This document shows positions 15,641 through 21,169 of a stretch of DNA of 36,654 nt, piece by piece (the stretch's first letter is position 1; each line of letters starts with the position of its first letter). The notes under the pieces are model-generated. The model had not been told where the DNA came from and made no database searches. It saw only the letters and a list, made by a program, of their open reading frames with translations. The stretch spans positions 1 through 36,654 of the forward strand of contig CALXSY010000018.1 of NCBI GenBank assembly GCA_944391285.1. The letters run 5' to 3'. The position numbers and the translations under genes were made by a program. The DNA is from an uncultured Clostridia bacterium (GTDB taxonomy: Bacteria; Bacillota; Peptococcia; Peptococcales; Peptococcaceae).

Positions 15641-15667
15641 AAAGCTCCCCTCAGGGAGCTTTTTTTA
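15641..15667. terminator. intrinsic terminator downstream of the 213-aa XRE gene
   Basis: A 9-bp stem AAAGCTCCC/GGGAGCTTT (15641-15649, 15654-15662) with loop CTCA is flanked by an A run on one side and a T run on the other. It can stop minus-strand transcription from the XRE gene. The stronger T tract is on the plus strand. Confidence 0.7.
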
Positions 15668-16306
15668 TTCGGCATTTTTCTCCAAAATATCCTCTATTCG
15701 GCAGCCCAAAGCCTGGGATAATTTATACAGCGTTTTCGCCTGGGCTTTGTTAATGTCCACCTGCCGCTGCTCATAAAGGCGAATAGAGCGAATATTGACC
15801 CCGGAGCAGTCAGCCAGCTGAGCTCGGGATAATTCCTTTTGTTCACGAAGTATTTTTAAATTAGTCCGATTTTGCGCCTCATCATACATTTTGTCTAAGG
15901 CTTGAAATAATGATTGATCGTCCATTTGGGCATATGCCGGGAAGCACTCCTGCAAATCATCGAGCAAAATATAAGTAAAAATATCTTTATATTTGCGCCC
16001 GCTTTTCTTTTGATACTGCGCCAATACCCTGCCGCACCAATAAGCAGAGGAATTTTCGTCAGCCTTTTTGGCTTTGGTAATGTATTTTTGCTGATTGGTC
16101 TTTTTAAATATTTCGTCGGCAATTTCCACGCCGGATTTATCATTTGCCGCATGATTTTTCTCCAGCTTGCTTGCCATGCCGGTGCGCACAAAAAGCTTGG
16201 CAAACCAATCACCGTTTGCTTTGCAATCATTGATGACATAGGCGAACATTTCTGCCAATATTTGCTCGGTGTTATGTGCCACGGTGGACTGCTCAACATT
16301 AGACAT
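15665..16306 (-). CDS. XRE-family HTH protein with an extra N-terminal domain
   Basis: The 213-residue protein has a C-terminal Cro/C1-type helix-turn-helix (ILREQKELSRAQLADCSGVN, then SIRLYEQRQVDINKAQ, residues about 143-195). The N-terminal 130 residues are unusual, with a segment WCGRVLAQYQKKSGRKYKDI and then ECFPAYAQMDDQSLFQALDK. That arrangement recalls HTH antitoxin-like regulators that pair with DUF3990/DUF3791-type genes in Clostridia, but no such partner lies next to it here. AAAGGAGG precedes the ATG. It ends at the terminator at 15641 and starts next to a repeat-rich gene-free region. DNA binding is secure; the partner and function are not known. Confidence 0.75.
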   Translation of the reverse strand: MSNVEQSTVAHNTEQILAEMFAYVINDCKANGDWFAKLFVRTGMASKLEKNHAANDKSGVEIADEIFKKTNQQKYITKAKKADENSSAYWCGRVLAQYQKKSGRKYKDIFTYILLDDLQECFPAYAQMDDQSLFQALDKMYDEAQNRTNLKILREQKELSRAQLADCSGVNIRSIRLYEQRQVDINKAQAKTLYKLSQALGCRIEDILEKNAE

Positions 16307-16352: not shown

Positions 16353-16504
16353 AAACAATTTCAAAATCCTTTTTTCTCTAAGAAAGGGAAGGGGCAAAAC
16401 GGCCTTTTTTCCCCTTCCCTCTCTTAAACTCTCCTTACCCCTTTCGTTAGGCTGTGCCTAACACTTTTGTTACGTTTCGTAAGTAACCTTAAAGCGCCCG
16501 CGGA
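16353..16504. repeat. dispersed repeat unit X, copy 1
   Basis: This 152-bp non-coding unit matches 20669-20819. The first 115 bases are identical; the rest differs by a few bases. It contains three successive hairpins: a G-rich stem AGGGAAGGGG/CCCCTTCCCT (16385-16394, 16411-16420), GTTAGGC-TGT-GCCTAAC (16446-16462) and GTTAC...GTAAC (16469-16487). It has no plausible ORF. Confidence 0.85.
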
Positions 16505-16522
16505 TTTAGGCTACTGCTATTA

Positions 16523-16722
16523 GCTTGGCAGCAAATCCCGCGCCCTACAGATGCGGCGTGCGTTTGCCTGCGCAAGCATCGACTTAAACACTACATTTGC
16601 AAATAGCACTGCCAAGCCCTGCGGCGTTTGAGCAGTCGGTTTAGGGGGTATGGGAGTTCCAAAGAGGGAAAGGGGGAAATATCGAAAATTGCCCCCGTTC
16701 CCTCTTTGAGAGAGAATTTTTT
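16523..16722. repeat. dispersed repeat unit Y, copy 1
   Basis: This 200-bp non-coding unit is related to 20397-20664. It is closed by a long-range stem GCTTGGCAG/CTGCCAAGC (16523-16531, 16609-16617), with an inner GCAAAT/ATTTGC pair. It ends in a strong hairpin, CAAAGAGGGAA + GGGGG pairing with CCCCC + TTCCCTCTTTG (16660-16708). Together with X and the terminator at 16761 it fills the gene-free stretch between 16307 and 16869. Confidence 0.75.
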
Positions 16723-16760
16723 TAAAAGCTTTTCTATGATTTCTCAGCAAGAAATTATAG

Positions 16761-16784
16761 AAAAACCCCCCGCCGAAGCGGGGG
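16761..16784 (-). terminator. intrinsic terminator of the surface protein gene
   Basis: On the minus strand a GC-rich hairpin CCCCCGC-TTCG-GCGGGGG (16767-16784) is followed by G and then a T run (16761-16765). It lies about 85 bp after the surface-protein stop codon. The UUCG tetraloop adds stability. Confidence 0.88.
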
Positions 16785-16869
16785 TAAAACCCAAAACCCT
16801 TTGGAAGAAGATAAAGGAATTTGATTTGTTCTTATTTGAGCTTAAATTTTTGTTCGGATAAGATTAATC

Positions 16870-19413
16870 TTATTTGAACATGGTTACTGCAGTAACAGCA
16901 CCGTTAGCACCGTAAGCGCATTCGAAGTCATAGCCGATAGCTTGGCCAGCGTAACGAACAGGCAATACGGTTCTGCCGTCTTTGATAGCAGCAGCGGTAT
17001 CCATAACAACAGTTTCACCATTTACGGTCAAGATGTTGGAGCCGATGGTCATTTGAGCATCGATGCCATCGCCAGCGATGGTAACTACTTGAGTAACAGC
17101 ATCGTATTCAACAGTTGCGCCGGTAGCTTCAACAAATGCACGTACAGGGATGAAGGTACGACCGTCAACGATGTAAGGAGCTACATCAGAAGAGATAGCT
17201 TTATCGTTAGCGATGAAGGTGTTGGTGCCGATGATGAAGGTTACAACATCGTCAGCGCCAGTAGCGTCAACTGCACCTTCGCCAAAGCCAACAGTAGCGA
17301 TACCAGTCAAATAGATAGTAGTTAAATCTTCGTTGATTGCTTTAGCAGCAGTGGTAGGAATTAATTCAACTACAACATTTGCTCTAACAGTACCTTCTTT
17401 GTTGGAAGTGATTACAACTTTACCGGTACCTTTTTTCAAGAAGGTTTCGCTGAAATCTTCAAAGTAATCAGCATCAACGCTTACGTTAGCACCAGCAGGT
17501 CTTTCGGTAACAACAGCAACTACTTCACCTACAGTATAGTAGCCAGAAGCTGCAGATACAGCAGTTGGGTTGCCATTAACGTCAACTACTTGAGCGTTAA
17601 CAGTTACTTCTTCGCCAACTTCGCCATTAACGGTGGTAAACTCTAAAGTAGCAGGAGCAGCACCGATGGTTAAAGTAGTGGAAGCAGCATATTTGCCGTT
17701 AGCAACTACGGATACAACGATTTCGTTACCAGAATATGCGCTATCATCTTTGAAGGTGATTTGACCATTTGTAGCATCGAAATCAGCAATTCCTAAACCA
17801 GTGTAAGAGAATTTCTTATTGGTTTTTACGGATTTCTTAACACCGTTTTGGTCATAGAGATAAACGGTAGCACCAGGAGTGTTAGCACCTAAAGAATAGG
17901 TAGCAGCAGGATAGCTAATGGTAGCATGGTCAATTACACCAAACTCATCAGCTTGGATAGTAGTGGTATCAGCTACACCAGTGGTGTTGTGATAACCTTT
18001 AATAGTGTAAGAACCTACAGCATCTGGCTCAAAGCTGATGTACATGTTGTCGCTAGTTGCAGGTTTGAATACAACAGGACCATCAAAACCAGCTACATTA
18101 GGAAGCTCGCTATCTTCTAAAGCAGAATCTTCAGGAGCATTAGTTACTTCAAATTTAAATGCACCATTGATTTGTTTTGCAACATCTACACTTGGAGCTA
18201 ATACGTTGCCGTTAGCATCGTAAGCACGTACTTGCATAGCTACAGTTTCTTCAACGCCAACAGCGATAGTGCCATCAACAGTGTAGGAGAACTCTACTTT
18301 GCTGATATTAGCAGCGCCAAAGGTGAATTCTAATTCTTCACTGTAAGTACCGCATTCAATAGTTACAGTGTAAGTACCAGGTTTGGAAGCAGATACTTTG
18401 AAATCGATTTTACCGGTAGCAGAAGTGGTAACTTCTTCTTTGTTTAAAAGACCGCCATTTTTGTCGATGGAGAGAGTAACATCTTCACCAACTAATTTAG
18501 CGCCGCCTTTAGTGAAAGCAACAGTAACATCATAGTAATCTACGCCATTGTTAGCATCAACAATGCCATTATCACCAGCTACCTCTTTAACAGTGATGGT
18601 AGCATCGATAACACTGCTGGTAGCATTGAATTTACCGGTTACACCGTTGCCAACGAAACCAGTTTTCAAGAAAGTGCTGCCGCTATTGTACAATTCAGCA
18701 ATATTTTGACTGCTAGTAGGATCGTCTAATGTATAGCCGCTAATTACATATGCTTTCAAGGTAACAGTGCCAGGAGTTTTAGAGTAAACATATAAGCTAT
18801 CGTCACCGCTAACAGAACCTTTAGAACCATCAATGATGAAGTATCCAGCATCACCCTTAGCTTGGTTAGTATTATTATCATCATCAGGTTCAGTAGTTTT
18901 GATGTAGTCTACATCAGACAATGCACCATTTCTTTCAGCAAAAACAATGATGAATTGCTTAGAATCGTTTAAAGCATCAGCTTCTTTTTGTGCAGCTTCT
19001 AAATCTTTTCTTAAATCATTCAACTTTTTCTGAGCTGCTAAAAGAGCTTCTTTTGCTTCTTTTGCTTTACTGCTTTCAGGTTCTTCTTTAACAGTAAATT
19101 CCATCTCTACAGTACTATCACCTTCGATAGTGTAATAAACTTCTGCAGCTGTTCTAGCAGTTCTGTACTCAGCTGTTGCTTTGTCTACTTTTCCACTAAT
19201 TTCGTCAACAATAGCATCAGCTGCAGTTCCGTCAGCTAATTCGCCATCAACATCGATGATGAATTCCAAGCCATCTACGCCGTCAGCTTTAGCAGATCCG
19301 TCTTCAACAGAGATGCTGGAGCCACTAGCAGTAGTAGCGAATGCCATCATAGGCATCATGGTGAGCATGAATGCAACCAAGGTGATGATTGCAAACAATT
19401 TTCTGTTTTTCAC
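16870..19413 (-). CDS. large secreted surface protein with copper amine oxidase-like stalk domain
   Basis: The 847-residue product has a Sec signal peptide (MKNRKLFAIITLVAFMLTMM..., cleavage near AFA-TT, residue 27). A short charged coiled coil follows (about 118-160: KAKEALLAAQKKLNDLRKDL), then several beta-rich Ig-like modules (DVTLSIDKNGG, GTYTVTIECG). The C-terminus holds paired copper-amine-oxidase N-terminal-like repeats (PYIVDGRTFIPVRAFVEATG and IKDGRTVLPVRYAGQAIG). It has no SLH domain or LPxTG motif. Codons are strongly restricted (GCA/GCT, GTA/GTT, ACA/ACT), unlike its neighbours, which suggests very high expression. An S-layer or major wall protein is the natural inference. The start is GTG at 19413 with GGAGGG upstream. 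It has its own terminator at 16761 and a long structured leader. Confidence 0.85.
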   Translation of the reverse strand: MKNRKLFAIITLVAFMLTMMPMMAFATTASGSSISVEDGSAKADGVDGLEFIIDVDGELADGTAADAIVDEISGKVDKATAEYRTARTAAEVYYTIEGDSTVEMEFTVKEEPESSKAKEAKEALLAAQKKLNDLRKDLEAAQKEADALNDSKQFIIVFAERNGALSDVDYIKTTEPDDDNNTNQAKGDAGYFIIDGSKGSVSGDDSLYVYSKTPGTVTLKAYVISGYTLDDPTSSQNIAELYNSGSTFLKTGFVGNGVTGKFNATSSVIDATITVKEVAGDNGIVDANNGVDYYDVTVAFTKGGAKLVGEDVTLSIDKNGGLLNKEEVTTSATGKIDFKVSASKPGTYTVTIECGTYSEELEFTFGAANISKVEFSYTVDGTIAVGVEETVAMQVRAYDANGNVLAPSVDVAKQINGAFKFEVTNAPEDSALEDSELPNVAGFDGPVVFKPATSDNMYISFEPDAVGSYTIKGYHNTTGVADTTTIQADEFGVIDHATISYPAATYSLGANTPGATVYLYDQNGVKKSVKTNKKFSYTGLGIADFDATNGQITFKDDSAYSGNEIVVSVVANGKYAASTTLTIGAAPATLEFTTVNGEVGEEVTVNAQVVDVNGNPTAVSAASGYYTVGEVVAVVTERPAGANVSVDADYFEDFSETFLKKGTGKVVITSNKEGTVRANVVVELIPTTAAKAINEDLTTIYLTGIATVGFGEGAVDATGADDVVTFIIGTNTFIANDKAISSDVAPYIVDGRTFIPVRAFVEATGATVEYDAVTQVVTIAGDGIDAQMTIGSNILTVNGETVVMDTAAAIKDGRTVLPVRYAGQAIGYDFECAYGANGAVTAVTMFK

Positions 19414-19600
19414 GTTAGTTCCCTCCTATAGGAATTTTTTATTTTTCGGCCGTTATTTGTCGCTCGGCAAACGACCACGCCGAGCAGCAAAAATAGTATA
19501 ATACTTAATAATATTTATAATATTTTTGCTGAATTAAGTTCGGTAGTGTGCTTTGCCCTTATAAGAAGGAAACTTGCCTCTTCTTCCCTACCGACCTTTG
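19414..19600 (-). promoter_or_regulatory. structured 5' leader of the surface protein gene
   Basis: Next to the start lies a stem GCTCGGC/GCCGAGC (19462-19468, 19479-19485). Farther upstream a 7-bp stem TCGGTAG/CTACCGA (19540-19546, 19588-19594) closes a domain with an inner AAGAA/TTCTT pair. A TATACT lies near 19495 on the minus strand. These features are typical of long stabilising leaders of abundant surface-protein mRNAs. No known riboswitch consensus was recognised. The transcription start is not determined. Confidence 0.45.
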
Positions 19601-19877
19601 GGTTTTCTTGTTCATTTCATCATAAACCCTCAAGGTTACCCTTGGTATTTTAAAGCTTGCGCTTTAAAACCATTGCTTTCAGCTTGCTCCTTCTTCTTCA
19701 CTTTTCCCCTGCTCCCTTATCGTTTTTTAGGAAAAGTGTCAAATTAGTTACAAACTGTATACTTAATATATCACAGACCTGTCCTTTGGGGAATACCATT
19801 GCGGCAATAATTAAAAATAGTTGTTTTGCCATTTATTTTATGTTCTGGCGATTAATTTGAATAGTTGTTGTAACCAT
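19600..19877. other. AT-rich gene-free region between divergent surface protein and XRE genes
   Basis: A perfect dyad TTTTAAAGC-TTGC-GCTTTAAAA (19652-19673) and a TTGACA on the minus strand near 19735 are the only notable signals. No credible ORF is present. Together with the leader it forms the 533-bp divergent control region. Confidence 0.4.
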
Positions 19878-19906
19878 TTGAAATTACCTAAAAAATGTAT
19901 TATCAT
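19878..19906 (+). promoter_or_regulatory. probable promoter of the 115-aa XRE regulator
   Basis: TTGAAA (19878-19883) and TATCAT (19901-19906) lie 17 bp apart. A better -10, TATAAT (19912-19917), has no good -35 at normal distance and may be the true hexamer instead. Confidence 0.5.
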
Positions 19907-19946
19907 ACTTATATAATCATGCGAGAACGATGTTGGAGGTGCGATT

Positions 19947-20294
19947 ATGCAAAGGATTATTCAAATTGGCGAAAATATTCGTAACATCCGTAAAGCTAAA
20001 AATATTTCTCAAGAAGATCTCGCTGAGCGTGCCTGTATCAATGCCCCCAACTATGGGCAAATTGAACGCGGTCAAAACGCTTCTATCGAGACTTTGATTA
20101 AAATTTCTGATGCTCTTGAGGTACCTATCACCGATTTTTTCTCCAATGTGCCTGCTTCGGTACGGGAAAATACCACTATTATCTCTCAAATCACCGATTA
20201 TCTGAAAAATATGACTCTCGAAGAGCAGGAAGCTATTTTAAGGATTATCAAAATATTTAACAAGTATAAATCTCATTCGCCAAGCAACCTTTAA
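19947..20294 (+). CDS. XRE-family transcriptional regulator
   Basis: The 115-residue protein is a compact Cro/C1 HTH (residues 6-62): IGENIRNIRKAKNISQEDLA, then NAPNYGQIERGQNASIETL and KISDALEVPITDFF. The C-terminal 45 residues (ITDYLKNMTLEEQEAILRII) look like a dimerising helical tail. GGAGG lies 7 bases upstream. It is divergent from the surface-protein gene and ends in a strong terminator, so it is a single gene. Regulation of the adjacent surface protein is a reasonable inference but no operator was identified. Confidence 0.9.
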   Translation: MQRIIQIGENIRNIRKAKNISQEDLAERACINAPNYGQIERGQNASIETLIKISDALEVPITDFFSNVPASVRENTTIISQITDYLKNMTLEEQEAILRIIKIFNKYKSHSPSNL

Positions 20295-20327
20295 TTTATT
20301 ACAACTATTTTTTCCCCATGTGACAAA

Positions 20328-20360
20328 AAAAGCCAAGCATTTCGATGCTTGGCTTTTATT
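20328..20360 (+). terminator. intrinsic terminator of the 115-aa XRE gene
   Basis: A 13-bp perfect stem AAAAGCCAAGCAT/ATGCTTGGCTTTT with a TTCG tetraloop (20328-20357) is followed by ATTT. It lies 34 bp after the stop codon. Confidence 0.9.
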
Positions 20361-20396
20361 TGGCAAGTATTTGGACAGTCGTGAACAACAGCAGAC

Positions 20397-20664
20397 CGGC
20401 AAATCCCGCGCCGTGCAGATGCGGCTTGCTTGTTTGCGTCGCTTAACGCAACTATCGCATTAGCACCAACAAGCCCTGCGGCGCTTGAGCAGTCGGTTTA
20501 GGGGGAGTGGGAGTTGCAAAGAGGGAGTACGACTCATGCCCACTATGGCGGGCATTCGCTTGCATTAGACCGCTCGCTATGCTCGCGACCGTCAGGGGGA
20601 AATATCGACATCGTGCCCTTTGGGTAAAATTGCCCCCGTTCCCTCTTTGAGAGAATATTTTTTT
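20397..20664. repeat. dispersed repeat unit Y, copy 2 (expanded)
   Basis: It shares blocks with 16523-16722: CAAATCCCGCGCC, CAAGCCCTGCGGCG, GAGCAGTCGGTTTAGGGGG, GGGGGAAATATCGA and GCCCCCGTTCCCTCTTTGAG. The terminal hairpin is enlarged here by about 65 bases after CAAAGAGGGA and by about 18 bases in the loop. The GCTTGGCAG outer stem of copy 1 is not kept; GCTTGTT/AACAAGC (20427-20433, 20468-20474) may replace it. Confidence 0.75.
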
Positions 20665-20668
20665 AATA

Positions 20669-20819
20669 AAACAATTTCAAAATCCTTTTTTCTCTAAGAA
20701 AGGGAAGGGGCAAAACGGCCTTTTTTCCCCTTCCCTCTCTTAAACTCTCCTTACCCCTTTCGTTAGGCTGTGCCTAACACTTTGTTACTTTTCGTAAGTA
20801 ACTTAAAAGCGCCCGCGGA
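20669..20819. repeat. dispersed repeat unit X, copy 2
   Basis: Bases 20669-20783 are identical to 16353-16467, and the remainder is near-identical. All three hairpins are kept. Here X follows Y, whereas in the first locus X precedes Y. Confidence 0.85.
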
Positions 20820-20838
20820 GTTACATAATGCATTTACA

Positions 20839-20886
20839 TTGGCAGTGCTTCCCGCGCCGTACATATGCGGCGGGCGCAAAATTTTG
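20839..20886. repeat. fragment of repeat unit Y after X copy 2
   Basis: TTGGCAGTGCTTCCCGCGCC followed by TATGCGGCG resembles the start of Y copy 1 (TTGGCAGCAAATCCCGCGCC, ATGCGGCG). The order at this locus is therefore Y-X-Y'. The fragment ends where the tRNA-Met duplicate begins. Confidence 0.6.
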
Positions 20887-20935
20887 CGCACAAAAAAAGC
20901 ACCTCTCACAGGTGCGCTATGGCTACACAGGGACT
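20887..20935 (-). repeat. 49-bp duplicate of tRNA-Met 3' end plus terminator
   Basis: It is identical over 49 bases to 21063-21111. That segment holds the last 16 bases of tRNA-Met (acceptor strand and part of the T arm) and its terminator hairpin. No tRNA body is attached to this copy, so it is a truncated duplicate and not a gene. Confidence 0.88.
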
Positions 20936-21062
20936 GCAGTCTTGCGCCTGCCGTCCTCGCTTATGCTCGGACTTCGCTCGGAGCAAGGATTATCAATCCT
21001 TGCTTTTTCCTCGCTCACCCTCTCGGGTTCAAGTCCCTTTTCTTTGGACTAATTTATTTTTA
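20936..21062. other. spacer between the two 49-bp repeats
   Basis: It contains a terminator-like hairpin on the plus strand, GCAAGGATT-ATC-AATCCTTGC plus TTTTT (20983-21008). It also holds GGGTTCAAGTCCC (21025-21037), which looks like a tRNA T arm on the plus strand, opposite to the real tRNAs. No complete tRNA or convincing gene is present. Confidence 0.5.
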
Positions 21063-21067
21063 CGCAC

Positions 21068-21092
21068 AAAAAAAGCACCTCTCACAGGTGCG
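21068..21092 (-). terminator. intrinsic terminator of the sigH-tRNA transcript
   Basis: The stem GCACCT/AGGTGC (21075-21080, 21086-21091) is followed on the minus strand by seven T. It lies directly after tRNA-Met. Confidence 0.88.
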
Positions 21093-21095
21093 CTA

Positions 21096-21169
21096 TGGCT
21101 ACACAGGGACTTGAACCCCGGACACTACGGGTATGAACCGTATGCTCTAGCCAACTGAGCTATGTAGCC
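21096..21169 (-). tRNA. tRNA-Met (CAT), elongator
   Basis: This 74-nt cloverleaf has acceptor GGCTACA/TGTAGCC, D arm AGCTCAGTTGGCTAGAGC, anticodon loop TTCATAC with anticodon CAT, and T arm GGGGTTCAAGTCCC. The discriminator is A. CCA is not encoded. The G1-C72 pair rules out an initiator. A CAU anticodon with later lysidine (Ile) is possible but the body looks like Met. Confidence 0.9.

Follow-up and report, generated by a model that had tools for sequence, protein, structure and literature searches.

Hairpin-bearing direct repeats on either side of a surface-protein gene and an XRE regulator gene in an uncultured Clostridia bacterium

Genes, repeats and hairpins at the locus

The window analyzed here, 36,654 nucleotides in length, is the entire contig C18, one of the 36 contigs that make up a 1.70-Mb draft genome, from an organism judged to be a spore-former from its gene content (spoIVA, spoIIE). 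In the region of interest the contig carries rsmI, an ogt-like gene and an HTH gene (15665-16306, minus strand), followed by two non-coding units, X and Y, and a surface-protein gene on the minus strand. Beyond these lie an XRE gene on the plus strand, the units Y-X-Y', four tRNA genes (Met, Thr, Met, Tyr; minus strand), a sigma-factor gene, a yacP-like gene and rlmB (Table 1). Gene-order comparison revealed that relatives have different genes following the sigH-tRNA cluster. At the left end of this otherwise chromosomal contig (868-2632, minus strand) there are ParA-like and RepA_N/DUF6017 genes of a plasmid-replication type, for which the best plasmid match was 38% identical, in Monoglobus pectinilyticus.

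Table 1. Features of the repeat-flanked locus (positions in the window)
Feature	Position	Strand	Remarks
X, left copy	16353..16510	+	perfect 115-nt run 16353-16467 and 91%-identical tail; hairpins 16379-16426 and 16446-16462 (small)
Y, left copy	16512..16737	+	terminal hairpin 16660-16708
Intrinsic terminator of surface-protein gene	16755..16787	-	16767-16784 within; between gene and Y; also in the C27 paralogue
Surface-protein gene	16870..19413	-	signal peptide, weak Big_1, C-terminal PF07833; between the repeats
Structured 5' leader of surface-protein gene	19529..19690	-	also at the C32/C27-junction gene
XRE-family regulator gene (HTH_3)	19947..20294	+	between the repeats
Y, right copy	20380..20666	+	terminal hairpin larger by ~66 nt and ~18 nt
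X, right copy	20669..20825	+	perfect 115-nt run 20669-20783 and tail
Y'	20826..20876	+	truncated; corresponds to the beginning of Y only

The initial annotation described X as 115 identical bases and Y as blockwise similar, arranged as X-Y to the left of the surface-protein gene and as Y-X-Y' to the right of the XRE gene, with all copies in one orientation. Our alignments bear this out, and with it the description of the units as direct repeats that flank a surface-protein/XRE cassette. The longest run common to both X copies is exactly 115 nt, starting at 16353 and 20669, and it belongs to an alignment of 16353-16562 with 20669-20876 (210 columns, 90% identical) whose BLAST E value of ~1e-76 means that the repeat is not there by chance. 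Y aligns in two blocks, 16531-16669 with 20399-20526 at 79% identity and 16685-16725 with 20626-20666 at 95%. The X copies start about 4,316 bp apart, and the Y blocks lie 3,857-3,941 bp apart.

An inverted-repeat scan placed the largest tight hairpins of the window in X and in the left Y. The stem TAAGAAAGGGAAGGGG...CCCCTTCCCTCTCTTA is present in both X copies and the stem CAAAGAGGGAAAGGGGG...CCCCCGTTCCCTCTTTG in the left Y. Folding was significantly more stable than in shuffled sequences for X (z = -4.5 and -4.1 on the plus and minus strands) and for the hairpin of the left Y (z = -3.4 and -4.4, respectively). The body of Y was unstructured (z = -1.0 to +0.8), and the right, enlarged Y hairpin folded weakly (z = -1.3). 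The Y hairpin was also said to have grown in the second copy. It is indeed larger there, with ~66 more bases in the 5' arm and ~18 more in the loop, a difference that cannot be polarized as a gain on the right versus a loss on the left. Where two or three copies could be compared the stem arms were unchanged, with no base pair varying on both sides.

The two X copies have diverged unevenly. The 210-column alignment contains 20 differences (18 mismatches and two gaps), every one of them after column 115, and the 95 columns adjoining the identical run are ~21% diverged. The longest run obtained in 20,000 permutations was 93, and the probability is bounded at ~4e-6. Stems and unpaired parts of X are equally identical, which base pairing by itself would not account for. 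Judged from the alignment, the identity of X against its diverged neighborhood points to either recent conversion between the copies or constraint, and this unevenness is the best hint in the sequence that the copies may have interacted.

The DNA next to Y' has a small duplication of its own. A 54-nt segment comprising a tRNA-Met 3' end and its terminator occurs at 20882-20935, adjoining Y', and again at 21058-21111, with an inverted T-arm-like fragment in the 122 bp between the copies. We considered a tRNA attachment-site island here and rejected it; the tRNA-Met 3' ends are only 176 bp apart and no integrase was seen, and the copies are for these reasons attributed to local duplication.

Distribution of X and Y and the loci of the surface-gene paralogues

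A sequence search of the draft genome found X at the C18 locus only. Y was found at that locus and as one decayed core on C24 (L006 1466-1540), between pnp and another XRE gene, where ~60-85 bp match at E = 3e-8 with ~17 extra bases inside. Uniqueness to the locus, which the initial annotation had listed among the findings that would refute its reading, thus holds for X and nearly so for Y, and the C24 core indicates that some dispersal of Y has occurred.

Searches outside the genome gave no convincing copy of either unit. The left X-Y unit had no match in the 12 other genomes of the family, and the Y core pattern had none among the order and class genomes searched. A 398-genome sample of the phylum yielded nine short, weak matches, each of which proved on reading to be coding or AT-rich, and there was no match in collections of plasmids, phages or viral contigs. 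Short patterns searched against a collection of species genomes matched twice, in Trueperaceae and Methanosarcinales MAGs; by eye there was nothing alike beyond the pattern itself, and both matches look like chance.

The surface-protein gene itself has relatives within the genome. The full-length paralogue on C27 is 63% identical and the two on C5 are about 50% identical, and no relatives of the surface protein or the XRE protein were found in viral contigs. Nucleotide homology between C18 and C27 starts at 16745, just outside Y, and extends across the terminator into coding sequence; it is found again at the start of the gene. X/Y therefore lie outside the duplicated module, and we rejected the idea that they carried the surface gene. 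The search of the genome did not find X/Y at the C27, C32 or C5 paralogue loci, which have in common only coding, leader and terminator sequence.

The C27 paralogue has repeats of a different kind. Between its terminator and a cluster of five tRNA genes lies a GC-rich direct-repeat array (L094 2250-2660), in which 82 nt are repeated at 95% identity and 47 nt are present in three copies. This array is unrelated to X/Y and private to the C27 locus. Thus, at both C18 and C27, repeats peculiar to the locus lie next to the surface gene, and a tRNA cluster lies farther on. A single repeat family serving all surface-gene loci was rejected, as the C27 array differs and the C5 flanks have no array. Since C27 carries an unrelated array of its own, spacer repeats confined to a single locus have originated at least twice in this genome.

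A second copy of the structured 5' leader was found at the end of C32 (L031 1630-1794, plus strand), with a mean column identity of 87%. The two leaders form stable folds (z = -4.95 and -5.4), conserve the stem TCGGTAG...CTACCGA, and have hairpins with GNRA-type loops, one of which is GUAA in one copy and GCAA in the other on an unchanged stem. The leader matched nothing in Rfam. In 13 genomes of the family, this one included, a covariance model found no convincing copy beyond these two; its good matches were the two training sequences, with two others at E ~0.4.

The end of C32 is also informative about the assembly. C32:15481-15557 and C27:21230-21306 are an exact 77-nt overlap, at contig ends and inside the start of another surface gene. 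The two ends are probably one gene (in the order purA, leader, paralogue) that was split at an assembly branch, possibly as a result of population heterogeneity, and the overlap looks like a cut of the assembly graph at a word length of 77. This is relevant to C18, where X is longer than 77 nt and the order through both X copies must therefore come from read pairs or longer reads; the linear order X-Y ... Y-X-Y' depends on assembly across repeats longer than 77 nt.

Origin and possible function of the repeats

Our preferred explanation, which we hold with some confidence, is that X/Y are a spacer that was duplicated locally and came to bracket the cassette as direct repeats, with hairpins that matter mainly at the DNA level. 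The spacer would have been a hairpin-rich, non-coding stretch private to this lineage, situated between the HTH gene and the tRNA cluster. Its duplication would have been local, either through a tandem X-Y-X-Y stage or in several steps, leaving the surface-protein/XRE cassette enclosed by direct copies. The initial annotation had proposed a tandem ancestor, and the alternation seen here is compatible with a former X-Y-X-Y spacer. The hairpins, acting as DNA, may have favored slippage, and the long identical tract of X could serve as a RecA-type recombination substrate, whereby gene conversion would homogenize X. In principle, the same substrate would permit loop-out of the 4,316-bp interval between the X copies or of ~3.9 kb between the Y copies. 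Recombination between direct repeats can remove what lies between them, and an X-X loop-out would take away both genes of the cassette at once; recombination between the copies, as the initial annotation proposed, is plausible, and by inference it could delete 3.9-4.3 kb or amplify the cassette. Two points speak against local duplication with conversion, namely the decayed Y core at the second locus and the possibility that constraint, rather than conversion, could account for the identity of X. The genus is represented in this analysis by one genome.

A much less likely explanation is that X-Y is a structured non-coding or cis-acting RNA present in two copies, with the identity of X maintained by selection on the RNA. 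In its favor, folding of X and of the hairpin in the left Y goes well beyond shuffles on either strand, and X is identical next to a neighborhood that has diverged. Against this, the same stems show no pair changed on both sides and the unpaired parts of X are as well kept as its stems; the body of Y is unstructured, its right hairpin is weak, and promoter-like sites are not enriched over shuffles. No Rfam covariance model matched X/Y at the gathering score, which agrees, for RNA, with the earlier view that they belong to no described family. Palindromic DNA can fold well without being RNA, and folding, the sole positive evidence here, leaves some room for an RNA role.

We consider it unlikely that X, Y or both are remnants of a MITE- or IS200-like element that inserted several times here and once near pnp. 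The Y-core relative at a second intergenic site and the palindromes within the units are what such an element might leave behind. However, X occurs nowhere else in the genome and Y only as that single decayed core, inverted-repeat scans detected neither target duplications nor inverted repeats at the unit ends, no transposase or integrase was present among the window proteins scanned, and phages, plasmids and viral contigs contained no relatives. The earlier suggestion of a mobile structured element is not supported by these searches.

It is also rather doubtful that the hairpins are bidirectional transcription barriers or stabilizers of 3' ends, shielding the tRNA genes and a highly expressed surface gene from their neighbors. 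Their positions would be suitable, as X/Y lie outside the terminator of the surface gene and between the converging XRE and tRNA units, and at the C27 paralogue a different array of repeats occupies the same position. However, the large X/Y hairpins have no T-run directly after them, and true terminators exist separately from them, on the minus strand for the surface gene, at 20325-20360, and at tRNA-Met.

We think it highly improbable that a lineage-specific system of surface-protein variation uses X/Y as its dedicated recombination sites, in which the cassette would be excised or amplified between X or Y copies and the common structured 5' leader and signal-peptide region would enable exchange between paralogues.

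If local duplication is all that happened, the locus is an ordinary case of an unstable spacer next to a surface-protein gene and tRNA genes. Recombination between the copies in populations, if it takes place, would provide a simple route by which a little-studied spore-forming lineage could lose a surface protein along with the neighboring regulator gene, or amplify the two.

Comparison with known systems

Surface-layer gene switching systems are known in bacteria, for example the sap system of Campylobacter fetus. The present locus is similar in having paralogues with common 5' sequence and repeats near one of them. It differs in that no invertible promoter or recombinase was seen and X/Y are not at the paralogue loci.

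MITEs and other insertion-sequence derivatives are, like X/Y, short non-coding units with palindromes. The hairpins of X/Y are internal only, unaccompanied by terminal inverted repeats or a target duplication, and in this genome and the family genomes searched X/Y have no dispersed set of copies; nor did we find a related transposase. X/Y are also similar to REPs and BIMEs in being intergenic, palindromic, non-coding and hairpin-forming. REPs are described, in one account of these elements, as usually numbering >100 copies per genome, with BIMEs holding them in alternating orientations (PMC2817692), whereas X/Y have two to four copies, essentially at one locus and in one orientation.

The closest likeness is to local segmental or tandem duplication of intergenic DNA, with which X/Y share direct orientation, confinement to one locus (the Y core on C24 aside), uneven divergence and a mosaic order, and for which the C27 array supplies a separate case within this genome. 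X/Y depart from such duplications in their unusually long perfect tract, their strong hairpins and the surface-protein cassette that they bracket.
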